Assembly: GCF_000348685.1 (NCBI RefSeq)
Contig: NZ_ANLA01000004.1
Coordinates: 744,001-808,000, forward strand
Source: Xanthomarina gelatinilytica
GTDB lineage: Bacteria; Bacteroidota; Bacteroidia; Flavobacteriales; Flavobacteriaceae
Direction of reading: 5' to 3'
Length of the DNA stretch: 64,000 nucleotides
Positions 8,846 to 31,645 of this stretch are shown here, piece by piece. The notes under the pieces are model-generated. The model had not been told where the DNA came from. It ran no database searches and saw only the letters and a program-made list of their open reading frames with translations. The stretch's first letter is position 1, and every line of letters starts with the position of its first letter. Made by a program: the position numbers and the translations under genes.

Positions 8846-8919
8846 CAAAAATACATTTATTCCGAAACTCTTAAAATGACAGCAATCATTTTAATTTAAA
8901 GGAACTTAAGCTATCTTTG
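8846..8919. promoter_or_regulatory. Bidirectional FNR-type operator with two -7 boxes
   Basis: The operator ATGAC-AGCA-ATCAT is at 8876-8889. On the plus strand TATCTTTG lies at 8912-8919, and on the minus strand TATTTTTG is at 8846-8853. Both boxes match all six fixed positions of TAnnTTTG, and both are centred exactly 33 bp from the operator centre. One bound activator could serve patatin and mla in a class II arrangement. Confidence 0.75.
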
Positions 8920-8939
8920 AAAGGCTTATAAAACAATCT

Positions 8940-9713
8940 ATGCAAAAAACAACGCACCTTTTTAAATCTTTTTTTATTGAAGTTGGCGAGCTCTCGTATT
9001 TTGCTGGTCGGTTTTTTAGGGAAGTATTTTCCAGGCCATTTGAGTTTAAAGAACTTTTAAGGCAATGTTACAGTGTTGGCAATAGGTCTATTTTATTGGT
9101 TGGAGTTACCGGCTTTATCATTGGGTTGGTTTTAACGCTTCAAACCAGGCCAACTTTAGAGGAATTTGGCGCTGTTTCTTGGATGCCTTCCATGGTTAGC
9201 ATCTCTATTATTAGAGAGATTGGGCCTGTAATTATTGCTTTGACTTTTGCAGGAAGGATTGCCTCTGGAATTGGGGCAGAATTGGGCTCCATGAAAGTGA
9301 CTGAACAAATAGATGCCATGGAGGTTTCTGGAACCAATCCGTTTAAATTTTTAGTGGTAACCAGAATCCTTGCAACCACTTTAATGTTGCCAATTTTGGT
9401 TGTTTTTGGCGATGCCATTGCACTTTACGGATCTTATATTATAGAGAACTTAAAAGGGGACGTTTCTTTTGTTTTGTACTTTAACAAGGTGTTCAATGCC
9501 TTGGAATTTAGCGATATCATTCCTGCTACCATTAAAACGTTTTTCTTTGGTTTTGCCATAGGACTTGTAGGTTGTTTTAAGGGCTATAATTGTGAAAAAG
9601 GTACTGTTGGAGTAGGTTTGGCAGCAAATTCGGCTGTGGTGTTTTCTTCCATGTTGCTGTTTGTGCTGGATTTTATTGCAGTTTTTGTAACCGATATATT
9701 TTTTGAGATTTAA
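8940..9713 (+). CDS. mlaE: MlaE-family ABC transporter permease
   Basis: This 257-residue inner-membrane permease belongs to the MCE-linked phospholipid transport systems. It has the YrbE/MlaE pattern: an N-terminal amphipathic region, about five membrane segments, and the conserved AGRIASGIGAELGSMKVTEQIDAMEVSG block around residues 100-127. In the Mla system it pairs with MlaF (ATPase) and MlaD (MCE protein), both encoded next. The ATG at 8940 is 17 bases after the predicted transcription start. MlaB and MlaC homologues are not seen nearby. Confidence 0.93.
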   Translation: MQKTTHLFKSFFIEVGELSYFAGRFFREVFSRPFEFKELLRQCYSVGNRSILLVGVTGFIIGLVLTLQTRPTLEEFGAVSWMPSMVSISIIREIGPVIIALTFAGRIASGIGAELGSMKVTEQIDAMEVSGTNPFKFLVVTRILATTLMLPILVVFGDAIALYGSYIIENLKGDVSFVLYFNKVFNALEFSDIIPATIKTFFFGFAIGLVGCFKGYNCEKGTVGVGLAANSAVVFSSMLLFVLDFIAVFVTDIFFEI

Positions 9714-9716
9714 AAG

Positions 9717-10493
9717 ATGAACCAAAAGCAACATATACATGAAGTTGAAGGATTAAGCACTAAAACTCGAATGCTTGAAATTAAGGATTTGAGAAAGTCT
9801 TTTGGAAACAATCATGTATTGAACGGATTTAATCTGGAACTTTTTGAAGGTGAGAATCTTGTGATTATGGGGAAATCTGGTTCAGGGAAATCGGTTATGA
9901 TAAAATGTCTTGTAGGCTTAATGCAACCCGATTCGGGAAGTATTAGGGTTATGGGTAAGGATATAACCAAACTAAACAGAGTGGAATTGGACGATATTCG
10001 TACAGAAATCGGTTTTCTGTTCCAAGGAAATGCCCTTTACGATTCTATGACTGTTAGAGAGAACCTGGAATTCCCATTAAGAAGGCACAAGCAAAAATTT
10101 GGGGACATAAAAGACACCACACCATTGGTTACAGAAGCCTTGGAGAGTGTGGGATTGGCACATACCATGGATTTAATGCCTTCTGAGCTTTCTGGAGGGA
10201 TGCAAAAACGGATCGCCTTGGCAAGAGCTCTCATTTTAAAACCCAGAATCATTTTGTACGACGAACCAACCAGTGGTTTGGATCCAATAACGTCTAAAGA
10301 AATTATTGAGCTTATGAGGCGTGTGCAAAAGCAATATAAAACCTCTTCTTTAATAATCACGCACGATGTGGATTGTGCCAGGGTTGTTAGCGAACGCATG
10401 ATTTTACTGGTAGATGGCACAAATTATGCCGAAGGCACTTTTGCCGAATTGGCTTCGTCTAAAGACGAACAAGTAAAAGCGTTTTTTAAATGA
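9717..10493 (+). CDS. mlaF: MlaF-family ABC transporter ATPase
   Basis: This 258-residue ATPase has Walker A GKSGSGKS near 52-59, a Q-loop FLFQG, the signature LSGGMQKR near 158, Walker B IILYDEPTSGLD and the H-loop ITHDV. It energises the MlaE permease. The listed start is 3 bases after mlaE. An in-frame ATG at 9771 (MLEIKDL) fits the usual family N-terminus as well or better, so the first 18 residues are uncertain. Confidence 0.93.
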   Translation: MNQKQHIHEVEGLSTKTRMLEIKDLRKSFGNNHVLNGFNLELFEGENLVIMGKSGSGKSVMIKCLVGLMQPDSGSIRVMGKDITKLNRVELDDIRTEIGFLFQGNALYDSMTVRENLEFPLRRHKQKFGDIKDTTPLVTEALESVGLAHTMDLMPSELSGGMQKRIALARALILKPRIILYDEPTSGLDPITSKEIIELMRRVQKQYKTSSLIITHDVDCARVVSERMILLVDGTNYAEGTFAELASSKDEQVKAFFK

Positions 10494-10558
10494 TTTAAAA
10501 AGAGCTCTTTCCCTGTCTGCAAATAGGTAGGTTTTAGGGAGTGAATAAAAATATAGAC

Positions 10559-11539
10559 ATGAAAAAAACAAGTAAAGAAACATTTAACCTAGGCCTTTTT
10601 GTCATTATAGGCATGGCTATTTTTATTGCTGCCATTTATTTTATTGGGGAACAAAAAAACATGTTCGATAAAACGTTTACCATTAGCGCCAATTTTAACA
10701 ATGTGAATGGTTTAATGCAAGGAAACAACGTGCGTTATTCTGGAATTAATGTAGGAACGGTTAAAAATATTAATATGATAAACGATTCTACCATTAATGT
10801 GGAGCTGGTTATTAATGAAAAGATGGTCAAGCACATAAAAAAAGATGCCATAGCCACTATTGGTTCTGATGGTTTGGTGGGAAACATGATTGTGAACATA
10901 ATTCCAGGAGAAGGTTCGGCTCAACCCATTTCACAAGGCGATATTATTGAATCCTATACTAAAATAGGTACTGGAGAAATGCTGAACACCTTAAATACCA
11001 CCAATGAAAATGCTGCTTTATTAACCTCTAAATTATTGGATATTGTTAACAGCATCAACAAAGGTAAGGGAACTTTGGGCATGTTGATTAAAGATACCCT
11101 TGTAGCTGGAGATGTTAAATTAACCTTGGAAAATTTAAAACACGCCAGTTTGGAAGCCAACAACACCATGTTGGGTTTAAATGCGTTAATACATAAAATT
11201 GATATGGATAATAGTGTAGCTGGTGTTTTACTGAACGACACAACCGAAGCCAATAAGGTAAGGCATATTATTTCCAATTTGGAGACATCAAGTTTGGAAA
11301 TTAAAAAGGTTATTACCAATTTAAATGAAACCATCACCAATATTAAAGAAGGGGAAGGTGCCATAAATTATTTGTCCAACGATCCTGAATTTGCAAAACA
11401 AATAGAAGAGTCGCTAAAAAACATTAATGAAGGCACCAAAAAGTTTGATGAAAACATGGAGGCTTTAAAGCATAATTTCTTGTTTCGTGGGTATTTTAAA
11501 AAGTTAGAGAAGGAAGAGAAAAGGGCTGAAAAAAAATAG
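10559..11539 (+). CDS. mlaD: MCE-domain (MlaD-like) protein
   Basis: An N-terminal membrane anchor (about residues 9-28) is followed by an MCE/MlaD domain (about 35-112, with NVRYSGINVGTV). A long helical C-terminal region then contains repeated segments such as NINKGKGTLGMLIKD and SVAGVLLND. MCE proteins form the lipid-binding hexamer or tunnel between the membranes. I prefer the ATG at 10559 (MKKTSKETFNLG), which is typical of the family, over an in-frame GTG at 10541. It is the last gene of the mla operon. Confidence 0.9.
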   Translation: MKKTSKETFNLGLFVIIGMAIFIAAIYFIGEQKNMFDKTFTISANFNNVNGLMQGNNVRYSGINVGTVKNINMINDSTINVELVINEKMVKHIKKDAIATIGSDGLVGNMIVNIIPGEGSAQPISQGDIIESYTKIGTGEMLNTLNTTNENAALLTSKLLDIVNSINKGKGTLGMLIKDTLVAGDVKLTLENLKHASLEANNTMLGLNALIHKIDMDNSVAGVLLNDTTEANKVRHIISNLETSSLEIKKVITNLNETITNIKEGEGAINYLSNDPEFAKQIEESLKNINEGTKKFDENMEALKHNFLFRGYFKKLEKEEKRAEKK

Positions 11540-11587: not shown

Positions 11588-12691
11588 TTATTCAGTTTTT
11601 TTGTTGACAACACCATTTACATCTATTATCTCCAGATTTAACCAATTAAAATCACCTTCTTCTAATTTCCAGCTTACATTGCTTTTGTTTGGGATTTTAA
11701 CACCATCAAAGGTTTTATGGGAAGTCATGTTTATACGCCAAGTTTCCAATTTGGAGTTGGTTTTGCCTCCATAGTAACGTTTTGCTTCAAAAGAGGTAAT
11801 ATCGCCTTCTGTGGAGAATTTAAAAATACCTGATACACTTATATCCTTAATTGTTAATGTTGCTTTTGCTGAATTTTCACTTATGCTTTCCCAAACAATA
11901 TAGTTGTTTATAGCTGCTGAAGGAAACCAGCATATTTCAGCCAAAAAACGTATCATGGCTCCAGAATTTATTTGCTTGTTGTTGCTTTCATTTACAACTG
12001 GAATTAAGTTGGCCAATTTAATAAGCATGTTACCTTGTCCTTGGTACAGTTTATCTCTACCACGCATCCAAATAAAAGGCATGGCTTCCACTTTGGTCTC
12101 CCAAACAAAACCAGGTATTTGTACATTAAATGTTTGTGTAGCTGTAAATGGCATCCATTTGCTATTGGGTTTTGTTCGCATTTCCCCTATTTGTTTAAGT
12201 TGAATGGTTTGTCTTTTTTCTTGCCCAATAACCCTTGAGTTTATCAGCCATTTTTTAACTGCTTCTGGTAAATGTAAGATGTCTTTTTCAGAAATAAATG
12301 AAGGATTTTTAGTTTGAGCATCTTTCAAGATTTCTTTGGTTTCTCTTTCAACCATCTTGTCAAATTGAAATTGGCCATAAGCAGACAAGCTAACGATTAG
12401 AATAAGAATATTGGCTAGAGTGCCAAATTTGGCATCTTTCCAAAACATTAAAATAAGTATCTGAGATAATATTAACGCTATAAAAGCAAACACAAACCAA
12501 AACCTATAGTTCTTTATATAAGTGGCTGTAGTTATAGAAAACAATAGGAATGTAAGGAACCACAATGTTCCAATAGGTTTTGAAATGTTTTGTGATAGTG
12601 TGTTTATTTCTGCTAAATGAAAGGCTTTTGCAAAGCCTAAAAGATGTAAGGCTGCATGAACAAGTAGGATGAAGCTAAATAGATACTTCAT
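11588..12691 (-). CDS. Membrane protein with DUF6544/DUF6920-like domain
   Basis: This 367-residue protein has about four N-terminal membrane segments (residues 1-110) and a soluble C-terminal domain (about 125-365) rich in beta strands. The soluble domain contains LPEAVKKWL, FVWETKVEAMPFIWMRGRDKLYQGQGNM-like and AKRYYGGKTNSKLE-like patterns, which recall DUF6544/DUF6920 proteins (family name from memory). Function is unknown. It is the last gene of a five-gene operon under the operator at 14804-14817, 12 bases after cbpM. Confidence 0.65.
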   Translation of the reverse strand: MKYLFSFILLVHAALHLLGFAKAFHLAEINTLSQNISKPIGTLWFLTFLLFSITTATYIKNYRFWFVFAFIALILSQILILMFWKDAKFGTLANILILIVSLSAYGQFQFDKMVERETKEILKDAQTKNPSFISEKDILHLPEAVKKWLINSRVIGQEKRQTIQLKQIGEMRTKPNSKWMPFTATQTFNVQIPGFVWETKVEAMPFIWMRGRDKLYQGQGNMLIKLANLIPVVNESNNKQINSGAMIRFLAEICWFPSAAINNYIVWESISENSAKATLTIKDISVSGIFKFSTEGDITSFEAKRYYGGKTNSKLETWRINMTSHKTFDGVKIPNKSNVSWKLEEGDFNWLNLEIIDVNGVVNKKTE

Positions 12692-12703
12692 CTTAAAAAC
12701 ATG

Positions 12704-13006
12704 TTATTGGTCCTCATAAAAATCAATCTTGTTGTGAAGCCTTTTAATTTCGTTTTGTAAGGATTCTACTTTACCCAATAAATTTGAAATAGCGTGAATG
12801 CCTTCCAGATTAATATCCATTTCAAAATGAAACCTAATTAGTTTTTCAATATTTCTTATTTGTGTAACACTAATGCACTGAGTGTTTTCTGTAGTGATAA
12901 TTTCAATCAACTCATAATCATATAACGAACTGATAAAGGTTTCAGGAACTTGATAATGCGCACAAAACTCTTGTATTGGTATTAAATTGTCTCTGTCCAT
13001 AATCAT
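12704..13006 (-). CDS. cbpM: CbpM-like chaperone modulator
   Basis: This 100-residue MerR-like helical protein has [29 protein letters not shown] at its N-terminus and a C-terminal coiled coil ([16 protein letters not shown]-like). This matches CbpM, the modulator that binds the J-domain of CbpA and inhibits it. Its start overlaps the end of cbpA by 4 bases, so translation is probably coupled. The conserved pairing with CbpA supports the call. Confidence 0.85.
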
Positions 13007-13887
13007 CTTAATTTTGATAATTCGATAAATAATTCTTTCTCTTTTTCGGTGAGGTTGGTAGGGGTTTTTATGTTGTAGGTAATGTATAAGTCGCCAAACT
13101 GTCCTTCTTTTTTGTAAACAGGAAAACCTTTACCTTTAAGCTTTACCTGTGTACCGTTTTGGGTTTCTGGTTTTACCTTTAGTTTTACTTTCCCATCAAA
13201 AGTATCAACCATCACGTCTCCTCCTAAAAGGGCTTTGTAGAGATCCAAAGAAACGGTTGTGTACAGGTTTTCCTTATCGCGTTTAAAGTTGGTGTTGTTT
13301 ACAATATTGAATTTAATGTACAAATCGCCATTGGGACCATTGTTGACACCTTTGCCACCATGACCTTTTATTTTTATTACTTGCCCATTTTCAACTCCAG
13401 CAGGAATAGTAATCCTGATGTTTTTATTGTTTACTGTGAGAGTGCGTTTATGCGTAGTAAAAACATCTTTTAAATCCAGTTGCAATTCGGCATTGAAATC
13501 TTGACCTCGGAACATGGTTCTACTATGTTGTCTGGAACCACCACCAAACATGGATTCGAAAAAATCTGAAAAATCACTTTCTTCAAAATTGCCATGGTAT
13601 TGTTGTTGCCTACTGCCTTGGTATTGTTGCTGTTGTTGTTTGGCTTTTTCAAATTCTTCGGCATGTTTCCAGTCTTTTCCGTATTCGTCGTATTTTTTTC
13701 GGTTTTCTGGATGGCTTAAAACTTCATGAGCTTCATTAACTTCCTTAAACTTTCTTTCAGCTTCCTTATCATTTGGGTTTAAATCCGGATGATATAGTCT
13801 GGCTAATTTTCTATAGGCTTTTTTGATGTCTTTTTCTGAAGCATTTTTTGGAACGCCTAATATTTTGTAATAATCTATATACGACAT
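13003..13887 (-). CDS. cbpA: CbpA-like DnaJ-family co-chaperone
   Basis: This 294-residue J-domain protein has the J-domain at residues 3-70 with HPD at 33-35. A Gln-rich and Gly/Phe linker (about 84-125) follows, then two DnaJ C-terminal substrate-binding domains (about 125-290). There is no Cys-rich zinc finger, which identifies the CbpA/DjlA-like class rather than DnaJ. It stimulates DnaK and in E. coli also binds DNA. It lies 13 bases after the ArsC-like gene in a stress operon. Confidence 0.92.
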
Positions 13888-13900
13888 TCTAATTGAATTT

Positions 13901-14266
13901 TTAAATTTTAATAATATCTGTTGGTGTTTCCACTAAAATGGACAGGTTGCCACGCAAAGCAATGGGTTGTTTCATGATGTCTGGGTTTTGCTGGATCATT
14001 TTTATCCAATCGGTTTCAGATAACTCATGAGGCTCAAACTTTTGTGAATATGAAGGATGCTCTTGGTTTACAAGGTCCTTTATTTCCATGTTGAGTTTGG
14101 CTGCCAATTCCAATAATTGTGTTCCTGTAAGCTTGTTTTTTAAGATGTCTATTTCTAATATAGGCAAGCCTTCAGCTTTGGCATAGGCCAAGGTTTGTTT
14201 GGCCCTGGAGGACTTGGAGCTGTAATACAAGGTTATTTGTCTGTTTGAAGTGGCTATTTCTCCCAT
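13901..14266 (-). CDS. ArsC/Spx-fold protein lacking the catalytic cysteine
   Basis: This 121-residue protein has the thioredoxin-like ArsC/Spx fold: the strand [24 protein letters not shown] at the start and a late PIALRGN motif, like the PIvv/PivvdG-type cis-Pro region of the family. The position that holds the active Cys in arsenate reductases (Cys-x-x-Ser region) is occupied here by Ser-Ser-Lys-Ser-Ser, so reductase activity is unlikely. It may be a regulatory or binding protein, as in Spx. It is the second gene of the operon, 12 bases after the flavin-binding protein gene. Confidence 0.75.
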
Positions 14267-14278
14267 TGAAATTAATGT

Positions 14279-14734
14279 TTAATGAATTCGTTTCTTTCCT
14301 GTAATGTCTTCAATTTTTATTATAAATACAAATGGTGTTTCATCTTTATAGATTTTACTGGAAAAATCGCTGATAAAATTGACTGTTTGATGCTCTTTTT
14401 CCGTAATCACATGCTTGACACCTAAAGAAAATTCGTGTAGGTAGGCTTTGGCTTCGTTGCCAAAAAACAACTGGAAGGTGCCATGTGCCAAAACAGATTT
14501 CCAGTTGTTCACTGAAGCTATTTCTGCAACTTGTAGCGAAACCTGATTGTTCTTTCTCATGGATTGGATTTTATGGCCTTCTCCAGAATAGCAAATAATC
14601 TGGTTTTCCTTGGCATCAAAATAATAGGTTATAGGAACCACAAAAGGTTTGTTCTGGAATATATAACCTAAGTGGCCTATGTAATTGTTTTCAAGAATGA
14701 AATGACATTCTTTGGTTTCTAGGGTTGTTATCAT
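14279..14734 (-). CDS. Pyridoxamine 5'-phosphate oxidase-like flavin-nucleotide-binding protein
   Basis: This 151-residue split-barrel protein starts MITTLETKECHFILENNYIGHLG. It resembles the Pyridox_ox_2 family of small FMN-binding proteins, with a strand-rich core and the GEGHKIQSMRKNNQVSLQV segment. Redox chemistry or flavin or haem binding is typical of the family; the substrate is unknown. A longer frame begins at 14773, but that ATG lies upstream of the transcription start predicted from the -7 box at 14774-14781. I therefore chose the internal ATG at 14734. It is the first gene of the CbpA operon. Confidence 0.78.
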   Translation of the reverse strand: MITTLETKECHFILENNYIGHLGYIFQNKPFVVPITYYFDAKENQIICYSGEGHKIQSMRKNNQVSLQVAEIASVNNWKSVLAHGTFQLFFGNEAKAYLHEFSLGVKHVITEKEHQTVNFISDFSSKIYKDETPFVFIIKIEDITGKKRIH

Positions 14735-14773: not shown

Positions 14774-14817
14774 CTAACTTACAGATTTTTGTTGTAAATG
14801 GCTATGACATAAATCAG
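14774..14817 (-). promoter_or_regulatory. FNR-type operator and -7 box of the CbpA/CbpM operon
   Basis: The operator ATGAC-ATAA-ATCAG is at 14804-14817. On the minus strand the -7 box TAAGTTAG (five of six fixed positions) is at 14774-14781, centred 33 bp away. The 14-base operator and the -7 box are identical to those at 16782-16825. Confidence 0.7.
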
Positions 14818-14880
14818 TTTGAAATTTTTAACTGAAAGGTTTGTTTGGTTTAATGCTGTGTTTATAAGAGTAACAAGCAG

Positions 14881-16176
14881 TTAAAAACTGTTTAAAATGA
14901 TAAAACCAACTATTCCTGCAATGAAGATCAAGCCATAACCTATCAAAATATATTTTTTTAGTTGTTTGCTTCCAAACCATAAAGTAAGGCCAATTTTTAC
15001 AATGGTGTTTGTAAGGGTTGCCAATAGAATAGCGTTTTGCGCTGTAAGAAACTCTACGGTATTTCCTCCCAATTTAGACATGGAGATGGTTATGGCATCA
15101 ATATCCGTTAGTGCGCTAATGGCACTGGAAATATATATTCCTTTGTCGCCATAGTTATTGCTGGCATAACTTACCAATATTAAAATAGCTGTATAAATCA
15201 ATCCAAAAAACACAGCATCTCTTATATTTAAAGGCTCTCCCAAAGGGATTTCTTCAGACTCAAGTTGATTAACATTGTGTTTTTTATAAAAGTAAAAAGT
15301 GACACCAATAGCTGTTAAAATCATGATAAAGATTGGTGTTAATAAGCCATTGATCATTGTGGGATTGAAAATAAACACCCAGATTAAAACCCTTCCAATC
15401 ATTATTGTTGCAGCAGCAAAAATGGCAATGGCAAAACTGCTGGACAATTTAGGCTGTTCCTTGCTTCTTTTTGAAAAAATCCATGATACCACAGTACTGG
15501 AAACCATACCACCAAAAATTCCTGTTAAGAGCAAGCCTCTTTTGGAGTCCAGGAATTTCATTAAAATATAGCCTATAAAACCAATGCCTGAAGTTAAAAC
15601 AATAATCCAGCCTATTTCACTTGGGTTAATTACATTATAGGGGCCAAAATTAGTGTTTGGCAGAAAGGGTAAAATGAGCAAGGCAATTATTACAAAACGA
15701 ATAAACGCATATAATTCTGTTTGTGTAATTTGGCCAACAATGGACTTGAATTTTATTTTTAATGAAAGTAAAACCACTATAACTACCGTTAAAGCCAAGC
15801 TTAATTCAATGTGCCCAAGAAAAGTTAAGCCACCAAGCAAATAGGTAAAAACAGTTGTAAACTCTGTGGTACTGCCTATATCTCCTTTGTTGGAGCTTAC
15901 CCAATATGAGATTGCCACAATTACAATAACACTTAAAAAACCAATGCTAAAGAACCATGGATTAATTAAGTAGTTTAACAAAGCACTGGAAAAACCTAAA
16001 AGTGAAACAATGGAAAGCGTTCTTAAGCCTGCAAAAATTTCATCTTTATCAGCGTTGGAAAATTCTCTTTCCAAACCTAAAACCAACCCAATACCTAAAG
16101 CAACTAAAACCCTTTTTATGAAATCCAATTGTGATAATTCAAAATGATCGGTTTGAATGAGAAGTAAATCTTCCAT
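14881..16176 (-). CDS. MgtC/SapB and DUF4010 membrane protein
   Basis: This 431-residue polytopic inner-membrane protein has an N-terminal MgtC/SapB domain (about 18-150, with LGLVLGLEREF and FAGLRTLSIVSLLG) followed by a DUF4010 domain (about 180-430) with further helices. In total about 12 membrane segments can be counted. MgtC relatives modulate magnesium or ATP homeostasis under stress; the function of the fused form is not established. It follows the flavodoxin-like gene after 63 bases and is probably in its transcript. Confidence 0.85.
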   Translation of the reverse strand: MEDLLLIQTDHFELSQLDFIKRVLVALGIGLVLGLEREFSNADKDEIFAGLRTLSIVSLLGFSSALLNYLINPWFFSIGFLSVIVIVAISYWVSSNKGDIGSTTEFTTVFTYLLGGLTFLGHIELSLALTVVIVVLLSLKIKFKSIVGQITQTELYAFIRFVIIALLILPFLPNTNFGPYNVINPSEIGWIIVLTSGIGFIGYILMKFLDSKRGLLLTGIFGGMVSSTVVSWIFSKRSKEQPKLSSSFAIAIFAAATIMIGRVLIWVFIFNPTMINGLLTPIFIMILTAIGVTFYFYKKHNVNQLESEEIPLGEPLNIRDAVFFGLIYTAILILVSYASNNYGDKGIYISSAISALTDIDAITISMSKLGGNTVEFLTAQNAILLATLTNTIVKIGLTLWFGSKQLKKYILIGYGLIFIAGIVGFIILNSF

Positions 16177-16239
16177 GAATTTTTTAGTGTAAAATTTAAA
16201 GATGTCTTTTAAGTTTCAGATACACAAAATAGAACCAAT

Positions 16240-16781: not shown

Positions 16782-16825
16782 CTAACTTAGTATATTTAAG
16801 TTTTTTAGACTATGACATAAATCAG
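16782..16825 (-). promoter_or_regulatory. FNR-type operator and -7 box of the flavodoxin-like/MgtC unit
   Basis: The operator ATGAC-ATAA-ATCAG is at 16812-16825, with the minus-strand -7 box TAAGTTAG at 16782-16789 centred 33 bp away. It is the same as the CbpA operon promoter in both elements. Confidence 0.7.
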
Positions 16826-18053: not shown

Positions 18054-18074
18054 GTCATTAAATACTTTCTTTTT

Positions 18075-21991: not shown

Positions 21992-22070
21992 TGTTATTTT
22001 TTTTAAAAAATTGAAAAATATTGTAGAGTAAGTATATTGAAAAAGACCATATTAAACACTAAAAAAACAA

Positions 22071-23147: not shown

Positions 23148-23191
23148 ATGATGAATATCATTTTATAAGTTACTTGGTGGGCTTATTTTTG
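23148..23191 (+). promoter_or_regulatory. FNR-type operator and -7 box of the first universal stress protein
   Basis: The operator ATGAT-GAAT-ATCAT is at 23148-23161. The -7 box TATTTTTG, a full match, is at 23184-23191, centred 33 bp downstream. The predicted transcript starts about 16 bases before the ATG. Confidence 0.75.
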
Positions 23192-24053: not shown

Positions 24054-24064
24054 AAACAAAAATT

Positions 24065-24451
24065 ATGGACATGTCTATTTTACTAGCCAAATTCTGGGGT
24101 TGGTACCTCATCGTGTTTTTTGTGATTTTAAGTTTCAATCCCAAACGCATAAAACAAATTTTCAATGACTTAAGAGACGAGAAATTTTTAATTATTGCTT
24201 CGTTTGTGGCCATTATTATTGGGTTGATAAACATTCTATTGCACAATGTCTGGGAAGCCAATTGGAAGCTTATTATAACCTTAATAGGTTGGATAGCCTT
24301 GTTTAAGGGCTTGGCCTTATTTACATTTCCCCGGCAAACTGTAAAAAGACTAAACTATATAAACGTAAAATTTGTACAGGTAATTTATATGTTGCTTTTT
24401 CTGTTGGGAGTGTTACTTTTAAATATTGCCTATAATATTGTGCCTTATTGA
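24065..24451 (+). CDS. Small four-helix membrane protein
   Basis: This 128-residue hydrophobic protein has about four membrane segments (near 7-22, 42-62, 70-88 and 102-124) and few charged residues apart from short loops such as NPKRIKQIFNDLRDEK. I do not recognise a specific family with certainty. It lies 11 bases after the Usp gene and shares its transcript. Confidence 0.7.
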   Translation: MDMSILLAKFWGWYLIVFFVILSFNPKRIKQIFNDLRDEKFLIIASFVAIIIGLINILLHNVWEANWKLIITLIGWIALFKGLALFTFPRQTVKRLNYINVKFVQVIYMLLFLLGVLLLNIAYNIVPY

Positions 24452-24474: not shown

Positions 24475-24518
24475 ATGACAGATGTCATTTTATTTTTTTT
24501 AAATAGTCGCTATATTTA
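24475..24518 (+). promoter_or_regulatory. FNR-type operator and -7 box of short transcript A
   Basis: The operator ATGAC-AGAT-GTCAT, a perfect palindrome outside the central bases, is at 24475-24488. TATATTTA at 24511-24518 (five of six fixed positions) is centred 33 bp downstream. Confidence 0.68.
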
Positions 24519-24608
24519 TTACATAAATAAAACATAGATTACTTCGTGATGTACTAGTTTATTTGAAAACCATTTCTTTAGATGGGTTTTTAAAAAAAAA
24601 TTCTAACA

Positions 24609-24644
24609 ATGACAGAGGAATCATTATTAGATTTAAGCTATTAA
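24609..24644 (+). CDS. Possible 11-residue microprotein in transcript A
   Basis: ATG to TAA encodes MTEESLLDLSY. It sits immediately before the terminator hairpin in a unit with a strong predicted promoter. The equivalent position in transcript B also carries a tiny frame. It could be chance; coding cannot be judged from eleven codons. Confidence 0.25.
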   Translation: MTEESLLDLSY

Positions 24645-24650
24645 TCTGAG

Positions 24651-24680
24651 AAAGCCAGAAATTTAATTTCTGGCTTTTTT
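24651..24680 (+). terminator. Terminator of short transcript A
   Basis: A 12-bp perfect stem (AAAGCCAGAAAT and complement), a 3-base loop and a run of six T. Confidence 0.85.
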
Positions 24681-24697
24681 GATTTTATTTTTGAAAA

Positions 24698-24741
24698 CTG
24701 ATAAATGTCATATTTTTTATCTTAAACATAGTTTACTTTTA
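24698..24741 (+). promoter_or_regulatory. FNR-type operator and -7 box of short transcript B
   Basis: The operator CTGAT-AAAT-GTCAT is at 24698-24711. TACTTTTA at 24734-24741 (five of six fixed positions) is centred 33 bp downstream. It begins 18 bases after the terminator of transcript A. Confidence 0.68.
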
Positions 24742-24883
24742 TCCTATAAATATAGTGTTTATATGGTTAAAGGTTATTGTGTTAAAGTACATAACCAAAA
24801 TTAAGATTCTTGAGTAGTTGTTTAACTTTGTTTAATAAGTCTTTATTAGATTTTTAAGATGGGTTAATATTTTAAAAAAGTTA

Positions 24884-24922
24884 ATGAATACTATAGAACT
24901 CTTAACAAAGCGAGAAAGGTAA
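24884..24922 (+). CDS. Possible 12-residue microprotein in transcript B
   Basis: ATG to TAA encodes MNTIELLTKRER, ending inside the left arm and loop of the terminator hairpin. It has the same relative position as the tiny frame of transcript A. Translation through the hairpin could modulate termination. Coding is unproven. Confidence 0.25.
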   Translation: MNTIELLTKRER

Positions 24923-24945
24923 AAACTTTCTCGCTTTTGTTTTTT
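24907..24945 (+). terminator. Terminator of short transcript B
   Basis: A 12-bp perfect stem (AAAGCGAGAAAG and complement), a 7-base loop, then a T-rich run broken by one G. Confidence 0.8.
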
Positions 24946-24962: not shown

Positions 24963-25006
24963 CTGATATTTATCATAGTTTTTCTTTCTAGTATTGACTA
25001 AATTTA
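24963..25006 (+). promoter_or_regulatory. FNR-type operator and -7 box of the second universal stress protein operon
   Basis: The operator CTGAT-ATTT-ATCAT is at 24963-24976. TAAATTTA at 24999-25006 (five of six fixed positions) is centred 33 bp downstream. The predicted start of transcription is about 20 bases before the ATG at 25030. Confidence 0.72.
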
Positions 25007-25029
25007 AAGTTAATATTAATACCACTTTC

Positions 25030-25878
25030 ATGAGAAAAATATTGATACCTACAGATTTTTCAGACAATGCAATGAATGCCATAAAATATGCTTTGGAACT
25101 TTTTAAGTACCACAAAAGCAAATTTTATATCATGCATGCCTATCAAGATGAAATTTATGCAGACGAAACTGTGCTTAATAGGAATAAACTGGCAACAGTT
25201 ACCAAACAAGTGCATAACGCGTCAACCAAAAAGTTGGATAATGTCTTGAAACAGATTAAAGAAATTTCGCCAAACCCTAGGCATGAGTATTTTGCTTTGC
25301 CAGCAAATAGTGTTTTGGTGGATGAGGCAGATAGAATTGTGGATAAAGAAAACATAGACATTATTGTTATGGGAACCAGAGGCGAAACAAACGATAGACG
25401 CATGACTTTTGGTTCTAACACCTTGCAGGTTTTAAAATATGTGGCCTGTCCTGTTCTGGCCATTCCAGAAAATTATAAATATACACAGCCAAAACACATC
25501 ATGTTCCCAACCAATTACATGATTCCTTATAAAAGAAGGGAACTTAAATTGTTTTGTGATATGGCATCACCTTTTAGGGCTACCATAGATATGGTTTATA
25601 TTTCAATGTCTGATAAACTGTCCATGAGACAAGAAGACAATAGGGAGTTTGTTAAAAACGAACTGTGTAAAAACCCAATCAACTTTATTACCATTAAGCA
25701 AAAAGACATCACAAAATCCATATTAAAATACATTGAAACCAATAACATAGATATGCTTGTCATGGTAAACACCAGGCAATCTTTTTTAGAGGATATCTTA
25801 TTTCAAAATAGGGTTTCCAGGCTTACCTTAGAACTGGAAATTCCGTTTTTGGCAATGCAAAACATCAAACGTATTTAA
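25030..25878 (+). CDS. Tandem universal stress protein
   Basis: This 282-residue protein has two Usp domains. The first keeps MRKILIPTDFSDNAMNAIKYAL and the ATP-binding GTRGETNDRRMTFGSN; the second is divergent. The open frame extends upstream to a TTG at 24994, but that codon overlaps the predicted -7 box, and the ATG at 25030 gives the standard Usp start. It is the first gene of a probable operon with the third Usp, the ATP-cone protein, the beta-CASP ribonuclease and the gene at 29056. Confidence 0.92.
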   Translation: MRKILIPTDFSDNAMNAIKYALELFKYHKSKFYIMHAYQDEIYADETVLNRNKLATVTKQVHNASTKKLDNVLKQIKEISPNPRHEYFALPANSVLVDEADRIVDKENIDIIVMGTRGETNDRRMTFGSNTLQVLKYVACPVLAIPENYKYTQPKHIMFPTNYMIPYKRRELKLFCDMASPFRATIDMVYISMSDKLSMRQEDNREFVKNELCKNPINFITIKQKDITKSILKYIETNNIDMLVMVNTRQSFLEDILFQNRVSRLTLELEIPFLAMQNIKRI

Positions 25879-25901
25879 TTCATTTATTAAAACTCCGTAT
25901 C

Positions 25902-26753
25902 ATGAAAAACATATTGTTACCAACAGATTTTTCAGAAAATTCATGGAATGCCATTTCCTATGCACTGCACTTATTTAAAGACGAAATATGTACATTTCAT
26001 CTATTACATACTTACACACCAATTGTGTATCATGTAGAGTATGTTATGGTAAGTACGTCTCAGTTTGATTTGGCAGATGTTATAAGGGAGCAGGCCTTAA
26101 AAAGCTTAAGGGATTTTGAAACCAGGATCCAGGAAACCTTTAACAACCCAAAGCATCACTTCGAGTCTAAAGCAGTTTTTAACACCTTAACGCTTGAAAT
26201 TTCAGAACAGGTTAAAGAAAACAAAATAGACTATGTAGTTATGGGAACCAAAGGTGCCACAGGCGCAAAGGAAATTTTATTTGGCTCCAATACGGTTCAT
26301 GTGTTCAAGCAGGTAAAATGTCCTGTATTGGCAGTGCCTGATGGTTTTAAATTTGAGCCATCCCTAGACATTTTATTTCCTACTGATTACGAAATTGATT
26401 ATCAAAACAAACAAATTCAGCCTATAGTCGAGTTGTCCAAAAGCTATCAATCCACAGTACATGTGCTGAATGTGTCCTATGGTAAAGATTTAACCGAAGA
26501 GCAAAAGAGAAACATGGCCAAATTGGGAAGCTTGTTTAAAAATATTACGTCTAGATTTCACAGTGTTAAAAACCAAGAAATAACCAAAGCAATTTCCGAT
26601 TTTCAAAACAAAACCAGAATTGATCTTTTGGTTATGATTAACAACAAACATTCGTTTTTTGAAAACTTGTTTTTTAAATCCACCATCAACCAAATAGGCT
26701 TTCATTTAAACATTCCATTTCTTGTAATCCCATCCAAGATGGCCAATAATTGA
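25902..26753 (+). CDS. Tandem universal stress protein
   Basis: This 283-residue protein has two Usp domains. The first starts MKNILLPTDFSENSWNAISYAL, nearly identical to the Usp at 23211, and keeps GTKGATGAKEILFGSN for ATP. The C-terminal half is divergent. The gap to the previous gene is 23 bases, so it is in the same operon. No separate operator is seen. Confidence 0.93.
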   Translation: MKNILLPTDFSENSWNAISYALHLFKDEICTFHLLHTYTPIVYHVEYVMVSTSQFDLADVIREQALKSLRDFETRIQETFNNPKHHFESKAVFNTLTLEISEQVKENKIDYVVMGTKGATGAKEILFGSNTVHVFKQVKCPVLAVPDGFKFEPSLDILFPTDYEIDYQNKQIQPIVELSKSYQSTVHVLNVSYGKDLTEEQKRNMAKLGSLFKNITSRFHSVKNQEITKAISDFQNKTRIDLLVMINNKHSFFENLFFKSTINQIGFHLNIPFLVIPSKMANN

Positions 26754-26802
26754 ATGGATTAACCCATTCGTTTTAATAATACCATAAATTAAAGATGCAG
26801 CC

Positions 26803-27639
26803 ATGAACCCTAACATAGAAATCACGAAATCCTCAGGTGAAAAAGTGAAATTTTCCCTAGAAAAACTCAGGGCTTCCTTAAAACGATCTGGAGCAGATGC
26901 AGACCTTATTAACCAAATATTGGATAAGGTTAGGGACGAGCTGTACCAAGGTATTTCAACCAAAGAAATTTACAATAGGGCTTTTGCCTTGCTTAAGAAG
27001 AAAAAAAGCTACTTTGCATCCAAATACAAATTGAAAAAAGCCATATACGAACTTGGTCCAACAGGCTTCCCTTTCGAGAATTTCATAGCTGCCATATTTA
27101 CTTATTCCGGTTATAAAACCGATGTTGGTAAAATCTTGCAAGGAACATGTGTTTCACATGAAATAGATGTAGTGGCAAATAAAAATGGGGAAACAACCAT
27201 AGTGGAATGTAAATTCCATAGTGAAGAAGGACGAAACTGTAACGTAAAAGTACCACTATACATTGCTGCCAGATTTAAAGATGTAAAACAGCATTGGGAT
27301 TCCAAACCACATAAAACCCAATTAGTTGCAGGTTATGTGGTTACCAATACACGTTTTACCCAAGATGCCTTACATTATGGAAATTGTGTGGGTTTAAAAT
27401 TATTGAGTTGGGACCACCCAAAAGAAGATGGCCTAAAAGATAAAATTGATAGATTGGGCCTATATCCAATAACGGTTTCAACTTTATTGACCAATAGGGA
27501 AAAACAATTTTTGTTAAGCAGAGACGTGGTCTTGTGTAGGGATTTAATAGGAGACGCTTTTTATTTGGATCATTTGGGAGTTTCAGAAACCAGAAAAGAA
27601 AGAATACTAAATGAGATTAAACAACTTTGTAACAGTTAA
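26803..27639 (+). CDS. ATP-cone and Mrr-like restriction endonuclease-fold protein
   Basis: This 278-residue protein has an N-terminal ATP-cone (about 5-85: EITKSSGEKVKFSLEKLRASLKRSGA). Next comes a PD-(D/E)xK nuclease core (about 88-210) with Asp122 in HEIDVVANK and Glu135-x-Lys137 in IVECKF. The C-terminal helical region (about 225-275) looks like a helix-hairpin-helix. An ATP-cone on a nuclease suggests nucleotide-gated cleavage of nucleic acid, which is inference. It ends 3 bases before the ribonuclease gene. Confidence 0.82.
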   Translation: MNPNIEITKSSGEKVKFSLEKLRASLKRSGADADLINQILDKVRDELYQGISTKEIYNRAFALLKKKKSYFASKYKLKKAIYELGPTGFPFENFIAAIFTYSGYKTDVGKILQGTCVSHEIDVVANKNGETTIVECKFHSEEGRNCNVKVPLYIAARFKDVKQHWDSKPHKTQLVAGYVVTNTRFTQDALHYGNCVGLKLLSWDHPKEDGLKDKIDRLGLYPITVSTLLTNREKQFLLSRDVVLCRDLIGDAFYLDHLGVSETRKERILNEIKQLCNS

Positions 27640-27642
27640 ATT

Positions 27643-29016
27643 ATGGAACAAAAAGTAAAAATACATTTTTTGGGAGCTTCTGGCGTGGTAACTGGATCTA
27701 AGTTTTTAATAGAAACCACCCAAAAAAATATGTTAGTGGATTGTGGCATGTTTCAAGGTCTTAAAGAATTAAGGGAATTAAATTGGGACGACCTCTCTGT
27801 GGATGTAGAGGAAATAGATGTGGTTTTGTTAACCCATGGCCATTTGGACCATGTTGGCTATTTGCCAAGACTTGTAAAACAAGGTTTTCAGGGCAAGATT
27901 GTGGGAACAGCGCCAACCCTTGCCATTGCTGAAATAATTTTAAGGGATAGTGCCAAAATTCATGAGGAAGAAGCTGAAAAAGCCAACAAGGAACAGTATA
28001 CCAAACATGAGCCAGCATTGCCTTTTTACACTACTGACGAAGCAGAAAAAACCATACGAAAGTTTCAAGCTGAGAAAGAAAATAAATGGATAAAACTTAC
28101 TGAAAACATATCTTACAGATTTCAATACAATGGCCATATTATTGGTGCTACCTTTATAGAGTTGGACATGTTTGAGAAGCGGTTTGTGTTTTCTGGAGAT
28201 ATTGGCAGAACCAACGACTACTTATTGGACAATCCTAAAAGACCAGAGTGGGCAGATTATTTATTTATTGAAAGCACCTACGGGAATAAATGTCATCCAG
28301 AAGAAGATGTGGAAGGTTTGCTTACAGGGCTGATAATAAACACCATACACGCAAAAGGAAATTTAATTATCCCTAGTTTTGCAGTGGAAAGGTTGCAAAC
28401 CCTAATGTATATTTTATGGAAACTGTATCAAAAAAACCGAATTCCCAACATTCCAATATTTATAGATAGTCCCATGGGAAATAACGTGTTGGAGGTTTTT
28501 AAACAATTTCCAAACTGGCACAAACTTTCAGACGAAGAATATAGAGCCATGTGTCATCATGTAAACATTGTGGAATCTTATAAAGAAACTTGGGAAACCG
28601 TAGACGATAAACGCTCCAAAATAGTTATTGCAGGAAGTGGTATGGTAACCGGAGGAAGGGTTTTAACCTACCTGCAACAATTAATAGATGTAAGCTCCAC
28701 TACTGTTTTACTGGTAGGATACCAAGCAGAAGGAACAAGGGGAAGACAACTTTTGGAAGGCGCGCAAGAAATTAAGTTCTTTGGGAAATATTATCCAGTT
28801 AAAGCTTCGGTAAAGCACATTGAGAGTTTGTCGGCTCATGCAGATCAAAAAGATTTATTAAATTGGATGAGCGAAATAAAAAACATTCCAGAAAAAGTAT
28901 ATTTAATTCATGGGGAACCAACAGCATTGGATGCGTTTAGGGTTAAGATTAAAGACACTTACAACTGGAATGCTACCATACCAAAATTAAAAAGTGTAGA
29001 CACTTTGGTGCTTTAA
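27643..29016 (+). CDS. MBL-fold beta-CASP ribonuclease-like protein
   Basis: This 457-residue protein has a metallo-beta-lactamase domain with HGHLDH at residues 65-70 for zinc and FSGDIGR, an inserted beta-CASP domain (about 195-330) and a C-terminal RMMBL region with SAHADQ and LIHGEP. This architecture is that of the YSH1/CPSF73-like and bacterial MBL exoribonucleases, which process RNA. Its position directly after the ATP-cone nuclease in a stress operon suggests a joint role in nucleic acid turnover, which is inference. Confidence 0.9.
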   Translation: MEQKVKIHFLGASGVVTGSKFLIETTQKNMLVDCGMFQGLKELRELNWDDLSVDVEEIDVVLLTHGHLDHVGYLPRLVKQGFQGKIVGTAPTLAIAEIILRDSAKIHEEEAEKANKEQYTKHEPALPFYTTDEAEKTIRKFQAEKENKWIKLTENISYRFQYNGHIIGATFIELDMFEKRFVFSGDIGRTNDYLLDNPKRPEWADYLFIESTYGNKCHPEEDVEGLLTGLIINTIHAKGNLIIPSFAVERLQTLMYILWKLYQKNRIPNIPIFIDSPMGNNVLEVFKQFPNWHKLSDEEYRAMCHHVNIVESYKETWETVDDKRSKIVIAGSGMVTGGRVLTYLQQLIDVSSTTVLLVGYQAEGTRGRQLLEGAQEIKFFGKYYPVKASVKHIESLSAHADQKDLLNWMSEIKNIPEKVYLIHGEPTALDAFRVKIKDTYNWNATIPKLKSVDTLVL

Positions 29017-29055
29017 ATGTTTATATTTAAACAATACTTTGTAATATTTTAAACC

Positions 29056-29475
29056 ATGAATACACTGCAAGATTATAAGGGTTTTAATAGGGAAAAATCT
29101 ATTGAAGAGCTACAATATACCATGCTCAATCACATAGAAAGTCTTCAAATTGTAAAAGAAGAACTTCAGTTTTTGCAATTTTTAACTCAGGCTCAAATTT
29201 TTAACCCAAATACCATGGATCTTTTTGAAAGGTTGGAACACTTTAAAAAAGAATTGGACAAACGCATTCACAAATCTGGGAAGTTAATAATTGATGCCAA
29301 TTTTCACGCCAATCAAATTGCAAATAAAATAGAATGCGATGAGCTTGCATGCGACAATTATTTTATAAATGCCCATAATGAATTGGAGCAGTATATCCAT
29401 CAGTTTAGCAATCAAACTTCAAAATTTAAGCAGGATCTGTTTCAGTATTTTAAAAGCGTGATTAAAACAGCATAA
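29056..29475 (+). CDS. Helical protein of unknown function (paralogue of the frameshifted gene at 30209)
   Basis: This 139-residue protein is predicted to be all helical with heptad-like stretches (SIEELQYTMLNHIESLQIVKEEL and later). It has no signal peptide or membrane segment. No known family is recognised. Its region around residues 15-60 aligns with the product of 30209-30647 once a one-base frameshift is corrected there. It is the last gene of the Usp operon, 39 bases after the ribonuclease gene. Confidence 0.7.
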   Translation: MNTLQDYKGFNREKSIEELQYTMLNHIESLQIVKEELQFLQFLTQAQIFNPNTMDLFERLEHFKKELDKRIHKSGKLIIDANFHANQIANKIECDELACDNYFINAHNELEQYIHQFSNQTSKFKQDLFQYFKSVIKTA

Positions 29476-29511
29476 CAGGTTTGCAATTTTAAGAATTTTT
29501 AACATAACCAA

Positions 29512-29555
29512 CTGATAATTATCATTTTAAAAAAGGTTTTTGCTGGTTAAATTAG
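29512..29555 (+). promoter_or_regulatory. FNR-type operator and -7 box of hsp20
   Basis: The operator CTGAT-AATT-ATCAT is at 29512-29525. TAAATTAG at 29548-29555 (five of six fixed positions) is centred 33 bp downstream. The predicted leader before the hsp20 ATG is about 32 bases. Confidence 0.72.
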
Positions 29556-29590
29556 TAACAAATAAAAAGTTTAACTTAAAACTTAATATC

Positions 29591-30040
29591 ATGTCACTTA
29601 TTAAATTTAACAATCGAAACAGGTTATTCCCTTGGAGTAATACAGACTTAAAATCCTTTTTAGGATCTGATGATTTTTTTAACGACGACTTTTTTTCTGA
29701 AGATAGCCTAATGCCAGCTATGAACGTAAAAGAGAACCCAACGGATTTTCAAATAGAATTTGCTGCACCTGGTTTTTCCAAAGAAGATTTTGAAGTTTCA
29801 ATTGACAACGACATCCTTCATGTAAGTGGAGAGAAAAGCAAGGAAAAAGAACAGGAAGATGACAACTATTCCCGAAAAGAATTTAGTTACAACACCTTTA
29901 AACGTTCTTTGAAATTGCCTGCCAGTATCAATACAGAAAAAGAGGCTCAAGCAACTTATAAAGATGGCATATTAAAACTTCAGTTATCTAAAAAAGAAGC
30001 AGAAAAGCCATCCAATAGAAAACGAATAGAAGTTAAATAG
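29591..30040 (+). CDS. Small heat shock protein Hsp20
   Basis: This 149-residue alpha-crystallin-type chaperone has the crystallin domain at about 45-135 (NVKENPTDFQIEFAAPGFSKEDFEVSI, ILHVSGEK, and the late YKDGILKLQLSKKE strand) and the basic C-terminal tail NRKRIEVK. It holds unfolding proteins in an ATP-independent way. The open frame reaches a TTG at 29540 inside the promoter. The ATG at 29591 (MSLIKFNNRN) is the sensible start. Confidence 0.94.
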   Translation: MSLIKFNNRNRLFPWSNTDLKSFLGSDDFFNDDFFSEDSLMPAMNVKENPTDFQIEFAAPGFSKEDFEVSIDNDILHVSGEKSKEKEQEDDNYSRKEFSYNTFKRSLKLPASINTEKEAQATYKDGILKLQLSKKEAEKPSNRKRIEVK

Positions 30041-30060
30041 CATTCCCCTAAGTTAATAGT

Positions 30061-30195: not shown

Positions 30196-30208
30196 AAATA
30201 CAAACAGC

Positions 30209-30647
30209 ATGTTTACATTTGAAACAAAATATCTAGAATGGCTAAGTGCTTCAGAAATGCACCAAGCTACTTTGAATTGGTATTCCGAGTTGAATTTTGT
30301 AAAAGATGAACAACTTTTTTTTTGACGACCTTATCAAATCTTACACATTACAATTGATAAATCCCAATTATTTTGAGGACAGCAAGCAATTGGTTGAAAG
30401 GTTAAATAAGTTTCAAGAAGACACAAACCAGTTGATAGAGGTTGTTAAAGCACACAGAAATTCATTGCAAATATTAATAGATGGCATTAACCAGTTAGAA
30501 GAAGAAACAGCATACAAAAAAGAACACAAAGAACTAGCCCTTAAACTATCAGAATTTAAACAGACTTACCATACGTTTAAAACAAGTTTTTTTGAGCATA
30601 TCAAGACCATCATGAAAGAAGAAAAGCAACAGCGTTTATTGGATTAG
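30209..30647 (+). pseudogene. Helical protein gene broken by a T9 frameshift
   Basis: A frame starting at 30209 (MFTFETKYLEWL) runs 38 codons and stops at 30323-30325, just after a run of nine T (30315-30323). The frame then continues from 30306 for 113 codons in the next phase. With eight T the two join into about 145 residues ending at 30647. The joined protein aligns with the gene at 29056 across the junction (SASEMHQATLNWYSELNFVKDEQLFF against SIEELQ...). It may be an inactivating mutation, a sequencing error, or a gene using slippage on the T9 run. An independent 113-residue product from 30306 is also possible. Confidence 0.6.
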
Positions 30648-30650
30648 TTT

Positions 30651-31484
30651 TCAATGACTGTGAAAAATAAATAAAGGCACTTTTAAGTCATCGCTTATTT
30701 TTTTGGTATCCGAAGCTGTTAAAAAACGTTCAAATGCAGTTTCCTTTTGTACAAGCAATGCCATAAGGTCTGCTTTGTTTTTGTTTAAATATTGAGCCAC
30801 AACTTCATGAATGTTTTTGTTTTTAACCAATTGGTATTCAAATGTTGTATCCTTCAGGTTGGTTTTAAGATGTTCCTGGTCTTGTGCTTCAGGAGTTCCT
30901 TCATCTTGCGGAATCACTCGTACCACATCCAATGAGGTTTTAAATGTTTTAACATAGGACAAAAGCTTTAAAAAAGCCTTGCTGTTTAAAGAATCTGTTT
31001 GATCTAATGGAAGAAACAATGTATGGGGTTTTTTATATTGAAATCCTTTTGGGATCACTAAAGTTGCACAATCTACTTTTCTAATTACATTAATGGTATT
31101 GCTGCCAAAAACCACTTCTTTGGCTCCAGTGACACCATTGGTTCCCATAACAATTAAATCTATTTTTTTAGAGCTTATTATTTGGTTTACAGAATCTGTT
31201 AACACATCATAATCCACAATGGTTTCAAAGCTTATCTTTTTATTGCTTGAGTTGGATTCAAGGGTTTTAACATATTTGTCTAGTTTGGTTTTGGCTTTTT
31301 TTACCAAAGAATTGTAAATGCTACTGGTGCCAGCTGCCATTAAATCGCTTGTGGTATAAACCGATTTTTGAGGAATATGTAACATGTAAAAACAACTTGC
31401 TTGGTCTTGAAACAATTGCAAGGCATAGTTAGTGGCATTTTTTGCACTTTCAGAAAAATCTGTTAGTAATAAAATGTGTTTCAT
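30651..31484 (-). CDS. Tandem universal stress protein
   Basis: This 277-residue protein starts MKHILLLTDFSESAKNATNYAL. The first Usp domain keeps GTNGVTGAKEVVFGSN for ATP; the second is divergent. The open frame extends to a TTG at 31526, but the ATG at 31484 gives the family start. It is convergent with the frameshifted gene, with a 3-base gap. An FNR-type operator-promoter at 31602-31645 would give a leader of about 114 nt, longer than in the other units. Confidence 0.92.
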   Translation of the reverse strand: MKHILLLTDFSESAKNATNYALQLFQDQASCFYMLHIPQKSVYTTSDLMAAGTSSIYNSLVKKAKTKLDKYVKTLESNSSNKKISFETIVDYDVLTDSVNQIISSKKIDLIVMGTNGVTGAKEVVFGSNTINVIRKVDCATLVIPKGFQYKKPHTLFLPLDQTDSLNSKAFLKLLSYVKTFKTSLDVVRVIPQDEGTPEAQDQEHLKTNLKDTTFEYQLVKNKNIHEVVAQYLNKNKADLMALLVQKETAFERFLTASDTKKISDDLKVPLFIFHSH

Positions 31485-31601
31485 GTGTTTTTGGTATAAC
31501 TTGTTTTTAGCTTTCTGAAATTCCAATCTTTATTAGAAAAGGTATCATTAAAAACTTAATTGATTTTAAGTTCCAACTACAACTTCAATAAAAAGGAAAC
31601 C

Positions 31602-31645
31602 TAAAATTATCAAAAAAATAGTGCAACAGCTATGATTTTGGTCAA
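31602..31645 (-). promoter_or_regulatory. FNR-type operator and -7 box upstream of the fourth universal stress protein
   Basis: The operator ATGAT-TTTG-GTCAA is at 31632-31645. On the minus strand TAATTTTA at 31602-31609 (five of six fixed positions) is centred 33 bp away. The site lies right after the terminator of the Ala-rich lipoprotein gene. Confidence 0.62.

Follow-up and report, generated by a model that had tools for sequence, protein, structure and literature searches.

The stretch of DNA considered here, hereafter the window, comprises 64,000 nucleotides (nt) of the Xanthomarina gelatinilytica genome (contig C4, positions 744001–808000; genome of 3.05 Mb in 47 contigs). It harbors an island of lipid, chaperone, membrane-stress and Usp genes grouped around the genes for a multidomain histidine kinase and for a response regulator, REC-CRP, in which a receiver is joined to cNMP_binding and HTH_Crp domains. 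The analysis deals with the operators of the form TGAY-N4-RTCA that precede the island genes at one fixed distance from a promoter −7 box, and with their candidate regulators. The −7 box is TAnnTTTG-like and was scored on its six fixed bases. Coordinates are 1-based, and operator starts are consequently one above those listed in an earlier reading of the window (the original prediction), whose ten operators are all present:

8877–8888: operator TGACAGCAATCA, bidirectional; −7 boxes at 8846–8853 (− strand, patatin) and 8912–8919 (+ strand, mla), both 6/6
14805–14816: operator; −7 box at 14774–14781 (− strand), 5/6
16813–16824: operator; −7 box at 16782–16789 (− strand), 5/6
19446–19457: operator; weak −7 box at 19415–19422 (− strand), 4/6
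23149–23160: operator between the REC-CRP gene and usp1; −7 box at 23184–23191 (+ strand), 6/6
24476–24487: operator; −7 box at 24511–24518 (+ strand), 5/6
24699–24710: operator; −7 box at 24734–24741 (+ strand), 5/6
24964–24975: operator; −7 box at 24999–25006 (+ strand), 5/6
29513–29524: operator; −7 box at 29548–29555 (+ strand), 5/6
31633–31644: operator; −7 box at 31602–31609 (− strand), 5/6

An eleventh operator of the window, at 62094, lacks a −7 box. When both sides of the 11 operators are considered, a box matching at least five of the six fixed bases lies 33 bp away, centre to centre, in half of the 22 oriented sites (11: three 6/6, eight 5/6), and no other distance between 15 and 59 bp holds more than two boxes or any 6/6 box. 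The combined pattern TGAYNNNNRTCA-N23-TANNTTTR (43 bases, one mismatch allowed) matches the window 11 times, against 0.63 expected from dinucleotide shuffles (n = 100), which gave at most three matches each. The operator without its box is enriched only about twofold (11 vs 5.45 expected from base composition); it is thus the spacing, rather than the operator alone, that stands out from chance. The 33-bp geometry originally proposed is therefore sound, as is its tally of three full boxes, seven 5/6 boxes and one 4/6 box for the promoters that face a gene. The eighth 5/6 case, TTTGTTTG on the + strand at 14805, faces no gene and may be a chance pair; this box (window 14840–14881) is directed at the MgtC/DUF4010 gene in antisense orientation.

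The same geometry recurs throughout the genome. With the gap between operator and box left free from 8 to 38 bases (31 spacings), 44 pairs were found, compared with 14 for the reversed pattern; 22 of the 44 have a gap of exactly 23 bases and no other gap holds more than three. Seven of these exact pairs lie in the window and 15 outside it. Ten of the latter precede a gene that could be labelled by family search, some labels being weak: FixS-CcoNO, a copper nitrite reductase, HemN, a COX1-type subunit with cytochrome c, NadA, a CBS protein, a pyridine-nucleotide oxidoreductase, a dicarboxylate symporter, an OmpW-like protein and a cytochrome-c-like protein. FixS, CcoNO, HemN and the copper nitrite reductase exceed the Pfam/NCBIfam cut-offs, which places sites before microaerobic and denitrification genes; a norCB assignment is our own reading. 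Among the other five pairs, one overlaps an open reading frame (ORF) on the opposite strand and may be due to chance. Since exact pairs occur genome-wide and several precede respiratory genes, the geometry defines a genome-wide FNR-type regulon, in keeping with the constant class II spacing between its TGA-N6-TCA palindrome and the promoter box. The original prediction had also suggested a scan of the genome and of related flavobacteria; across 299 Flavobacteriaceae genomes the strict pair was found 2215 times, compared with 48 for the reversed pattern, and in 262 of the 299 genomes. Its core claim, that FNR-type palindromes with class II spacing lie ahead of stress, chaperone and Usp genes, is hence borne out far above chance, and its description of the regulon as regional is rejected. 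We attach practically no credence to the idea that chance or the AT-rich composition of the DNA produced the pairs: the twofold excess of the operator alone would agree with it, but the shuffles, the single spacing that gathers half of the pairs among 31 and the reversed-pattern counts already refute it.

The window encodes both components of a putative two-component system, immediately upstream of the operator at 23149:

19562–21991, + strand: histidine kinase with PAS1 (FixL/DosP-like), PAS2 (LOV), PAS3, GAF, HisKA and HATPase domains (Pfam)
22071–23126, + strand: REC-CRP response regulator with receiver, cNMP_binding and HTH_Crp domains (Pfam), the proposed regulator of the island

The original prediction identified the sites but did not connect them with this kinase and REC-CRP (19562–23126). 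The closest named relatives of REC-CRP among the matches listed are from Xanthomarina strains (86 and 84% identity). Its receiver residues D9, D10, D52 and K104 and its recognition-helix residues E317, I320 and R321 are invariant (81/81), and its CRP part has no fully conserved Cys. An FNR-like protein is encoded on contig C14, in which C6, C9, C55 and C108 as well as E193, I196 and R197 are invariant in 20 of 20 homologues; NCBIfam Fnr is its best match, with a score below the cut-off, and its cysteine spacing differs from that of E. coli FNR. The E--IR helix common to REC-CRP and FNR fits their common TGA/TCA core. An operator lies directly before the fnr-like gene (L038, G000:C14:9191-9219) with its box at a gap of 9, which suggests autoregulation with a different geometry. 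A third CRP paralogue (P0005, contig C21) was rejected as a user of the sites despite its E--IR helix, its effect in the regression described below being nil; its gene (L001, G000:C21:34714-37977) adjoins a gene that, by reading alone, putatively encodes a truncated haemoglobin. A study predicting MalR-like CRP homologues in a Flavobacteriales metagenome-assembled genome with E. coli and Bacteroides matrices was of no help here (PMC8510549).

Among solved structures (PDB), PAS1 of the kinase best matches the heme oxygen sensors DosP (2e-15) and FixL (7e-13), and its His64 aligns with the heme His. This residue is present in 77 of 79 kinases encoded next to REC-CRP; pattern matching identified 65, and inspection of the other 14 by eye added 12. 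PAS2 is a LOV domain (best match 3e-38) carrying the photo-active Cys motif NCRFLQ, so that one kinase may read both oxygen and blue light. The motif occurs in 21 of the 79 neighbouring kinases; light input, if real, would therefore be lineage-specific.

The number of strict sites per genome follows the presence of both regulators. Means are 1.05 in genomes with neither regulator (n = 61), 6.2 with FNR only (n = 101), 8.4 with REC-CRP only (n = 56) and 13.0 with both (n = 81); no genome with a regulator lacks sites (0/238), against 37 of the 61 with neither. In a linear regression that includes genome size, t is 11.2 for REC-CRP, 6.25 for FNR and −0.89 for the third CRP paralogue. In eight of nine genera discordant for REC-CRP, the member possessing it has more sites. 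One genome, G002 (REC-CRP best E 8e-35), was scored REC-CRP-negative. Six genomes with neither regulator (G048, G138, G147, G205, G238 and G251) nevertheless hold 4 to 11 strict pairs; some are incomplete assemblies, and missing contigs or another regulator possibly account for these pairs. The REC-CRP-only genomes G101, G233 and G090 hold 9, 9 and 15 strict sites, and their other above-cut-off HTH_Crp_2 proteins carry different recognition helices. The palindrome is of FNR type, as originally proposed; the family counts point to two regulators for one operator and not to a single FNR.

The sites are also physically linked to the REC-CRP gene. Of 147 sites in 14 of the 18 listed REC-CRP-only genomes, 44 are no more than 25 kb away from it, where about 1.5% would be expected, and 12 of the 14 have a site within 1.5 kb. 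The 80 named REC-CRP loci hold 134 strict boxes at this spacing and at most five at any other, and in 76 of them a pair follows the REC-CRP gene within 300 bp. Of the 426 pairs in these loci, 252 could be assigned to a homologue of a window gene. Counting homologues that cover at least half of the query, labelled by best match, a site precedes usp1 in 102 of 118 cases, usp2 in 32 of 40, hsp20 in 10 of 19, mlaE in 3 of 4, usp4 in 5 of 15 and hyp138, with a box of at least 5/6, in 44 of 48. The last count, together with a predicted start 20 nt before the gene, supports the weak box at 19446. No site precedes REC-CRP itself (0/89) or the operon-internal RNase-like gene (0/29). At greater distance, REC-CRP homologues (E ≤ 1e-60) are found in 74 of 149 genomes at class level; of 20 such distant loci, 18 have a kinase just upstream, 13 of those 18 show a loose FixL-type His pattern and 12 of the 20 contain Usp homologues, with the spacing peak retained (16 vs at most 3).

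These data bear on the view that FNR alone controls the island and that REC-CRP is merely located there and acts elsewhere, which we regard as improbable. It would agree with the occurrence of the same core operator and spacing before FNR-type genes outside the window and in FNR-only genomes, whose core letters equal those of REC-CRP-only genomes. However, REC-CRP-only genomes hold the larger number of sites, these cluster around the REC-CRP gene, and the same-genus genome G261, which possesses FNR and lacks REC-CRP, departs from the island in two respects: the flank RTCA-TT is absent from its sites (0/13) and the RNase-like gene of the island was not found in it.

An attempt to split REC-CRP from FNR sites by core letters (100 listed sites per group) failed, and only the flanks differ: in two same-genus genomes, RTCA-TT is seen in 12 of 22 island sites but in just 1 of 42 sites elsewhere, and G at the second flank position in 0 of 22 against 16 of 42, the island set of G000 taking in one-mismatch sites and the other sets exact sites only. 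A joint regulon, with every site common to REC-CRP and FNR and no specialization between them, would explain the identical E--IR helix residues and core letters and is a less likely but still serious reading; the flank bias, with the second-position G confined to sites elsewhere, argues against it, as do site counts that are additive rather than saturating.

Position relative to the promoter is informative on the mode of action. The canonical position of class II activators is −41.5. The four bases 3′ of the operator, at the position expected for the −33 element, were compared in 100 sites each of REC-CRP-only and FNR-only genomes; they mostly read T-(A/G/T)-T-T, with G as the fourth base in 3 and 8 of 100, respectively. 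The −33 element is TTTG, and the scarcity of G would fit a promoter that depends on an activator. In Flavobacterium psychrophilum, the sigma-A box TAnnTTTG occupies −12 to −5 according to a transcriptome map (PMC9723704). With the box centred at −8.5 and a further 33 bp, the operator centre would accordingly lie at −41.5 in the present species, provided that the box occupies the same position. Predicted starts precede the start codon by 15 to 35 nt in eight of nine coding promoters, the ninth being that of usp4 (113 nt to ATG 31484). The predicted leaders measure 17 nt for patatin, 16 nt for the mla genes, 35 nt to ATG 14734, 19 nt for the 16813 promoter, 20 nt for the 19446 promoter, 31 nt to ATG 29591 (hsp20) and 19 nt from the 24964 promoter to ATG 25030, which makes the mechanically called TTG start at 24994 probably wrong; for four genes, the start was set at an ATG lying 3′ of the TTG called mechanically. 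It could be argued that the palindrome, which adjoins the −33 region, serves as a binding site for a repressor or as an element of an extended sigma-A promoter rather than as a class II activator site. We consider this very unlikely, because genomes with neither regulator hold few pairs, because −41.5 is the canonical activator position and because the G of TTTG is rare at the fourth position 3′ of the operator.

The predicted promoters would serve the following units, with putative operons indicated:

8051–8824, − strand: patatin-like phospholipase (Pfam)
8940–11539, + strand: MlaE, ABC ATPase and MlaD genes (Pfam; putative operon)
11588–14734, − strand: PNPOx-like, ArsC-like (below cut-off), DnaJ/CbpA-like, MerR_2/CbpM-like and DUF6544 proteins (Pfam; putative operon)
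14881–16758, − strand: 172-amino-acid protein lacking a Pfam match and MgtC/DUF4010 protein (Pfam; putative operon)
16836–19390, − strand: hyp138, MscS-like channel and metallophosphoesterase (Pfam; putative operon)
23211–24451, + strand: usp1 and a 128-amino-acid protein lacking a Pfam match (Pfam)
24523–24685, + strand: ORF-less short unit 1, candidate small RNA; terminator 24647–24681, operator 24476
24746–24945, + strand: ORF-less short unit 2, candidate small RNA; terminator 24907–24937, operator 24699
25030–29475, + strand: usp2, usp3, ATP-cone/Mrr protein, MBL-fold RNase-like protein and hyp139 (Pfam; putative operon)
29591–30040, + strand: Hsp20 small heat-shock protein (Pfam)
30651–31484, − strand: usp4 (Pfam)

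The two short units, of about 160 and 200 nt, stand in tandem, each with its own operator promoter and a strong terminator. Neither contains an ORF of 50 amino acids starting from ATG, and no Rfam family was found in window positions 8000–32500. Comparable units number 16, spread over 12 of the 80 loci and mostly in the corresponding position, those of L108 and L124 (minus strand) probably being false matches; unit 1 of the window and 6 of the 16 related units align, with a short stretch (GC-N2-TTAA) conserved upstream of the terminator. The sequence features make them candidate low-oxygen small RNAs.

Taken together, the data support a class of promoters with FNR-type sites in class II position on which two regulators act, and we consider it probable that the island is a stress module under its central two-component system, with REC-CRP and FNR sharing an operator. 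In the proposed mechanism, which builds on the observed operators, their geometry and enrichment, their association with the regulators, the domain homologies and the shared helix residues, the kinase (19562–21991) would bind heme in its FixL/DosP-type PAS domain and thereby sense oxygen, and in this lineage possibly also blue light through its LOV domain. Phosphotransfer to the receiver of REC-CRP (22071–23126) would follow; REC-CRP would then bind TGAY-N4-RTCA directly, at a site with its centre at −41.5 and adjacent to the −33 region, and would activate rather than repress sigma-A promoters by class II contact, with induction in low oxygen from the predicted start sites. The boldest part of this scheme, that the kinase senses oxygen and that REC-CRP activates once phosphorylated, is drawn from homology and co-occurrence. 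The separate FNR-type protein of contig C14 would use the same operator and geometry elsewhere, before the cbb3 oxidase, nirK and hemN genes, so that two inputs can converge on one promoter class. The F. psychrophilum map reports cbb3-oxidase induction under oxygen limitation, and the portion of its main text available is silent on FNR (PMC9723704).

Several points weigh against this reading. In the kinase, the distal Arg of FixL is replaced by Lys84 (Arg is found in 51 of 66 aligned PAS1 domains), for which reason it is named FixL-like only, and Leu takes the place of the heme His in 2 of the 79 kinases. Few sites lie near the regulator in G042 (0/10), G143 (1/9), G244 (1/9) and G069 (1/16), and some targets are weakly conserved, a site preceding 1 of 7 patatin, 9 of 26 cbpA and 8 of 25 PNPOx-like homologues. 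As core operator letters are equal in REC-CRP-only and FNR-only genomes, single sites are not assignable to one regulator; the RTCA-TT contrast was picked after this comparison had been seen, 4 of the 11 "island" sites of G038 lie about 300 kb from REC-CRP, near the RNase-like gene, and that gene is kept in 5 of 20 FNR-only genomes. The counts and the regression treat genomes as independent and depend on thresholds of our choosing (1e-75 and 1e-45), with 11 genomes whose best FNR E-value falls between 1e-45 and 1e-30 scored as FNR-negative. Among the discordant genera, g18 is reversed (12 vs 13), and g73 and g88 differ in FNR as well. Moreover, five of seven further REC-CRP-only genomes carry extra E--(I/V)R or receiver-CRP proteins: an additional E--(I/V)R-helix protein in G130, G054 and G027, and a second receiver-CRP protein in G056, G254 and G054. 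This reading of CRP-type proteins covered ten REC-CRP-only genomes and 20 loci, by HTH_Crp_2 search only.

A broader generalization of the two-regulator reading is tentative, and we hold it somewhat less likely to be right than wrong: a Bacteroidia-wide phosphorelay for oxygen, and in some lineages blue light, with a fused FixJ/FixK, an operator shared with FNR, a DosR-like dormancy and stress island and two FnrS-like small RNAs. The FNR regulon, as known from E. coli, resembles the present one in its TGA-N6-TCA core, its class II distance and the type of targets, here the cbb3 oxidase, hemN and nirK genes, but the outer T of the TTGAT half-site is not required in the pattern used here, and a second regulator, whose CRP part has no fully conserved Cys, appears to use the same sites. 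The DosS/DosT-DosR system of mycobacteria shares a heme-type kinase and hypoxia-type targets (Usp, Hsp20, CBS and PNPOx-like proteins). DosR is a NarL-type regulator that recognizes another motif and its kinases are of the GAF-heme type, whereas the island regulator has an HTH_Crp output and its kinase is putatively of the PAS-heme type. FnrS of enterics is likewise a short unit under an FNR-type operator; the putative non-coding units described here have no Rfam match and are known from their sequence.

The closest parallel is the FixL-FixJ-FixK cascade of Alphaproteobacteria, in which FixJ and FixK act as separate proteins. A FixL-like PAS kinase, a receiver protein and a CRP/FNR-type output are common to both, but in place of a separate FixJ (receiver and NarL-type HTH) and FixK, the present locus encodes one REC-cNMP-HTH_Crp protein that combines receiver and CRP/FNR module, the promoter is of the Bacteroidetes sigma-A type, and the island targets are mainly Usp, Hsp20, lipid and membrane-stress genes. 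To this comparison the finding contributes an exact operator-promoter grammar, two candidate regulators and site counts in 299 genomes; if true, it would provide a simple example of a cascade condensed into a single protein, with two inputs acting on one promoter class.

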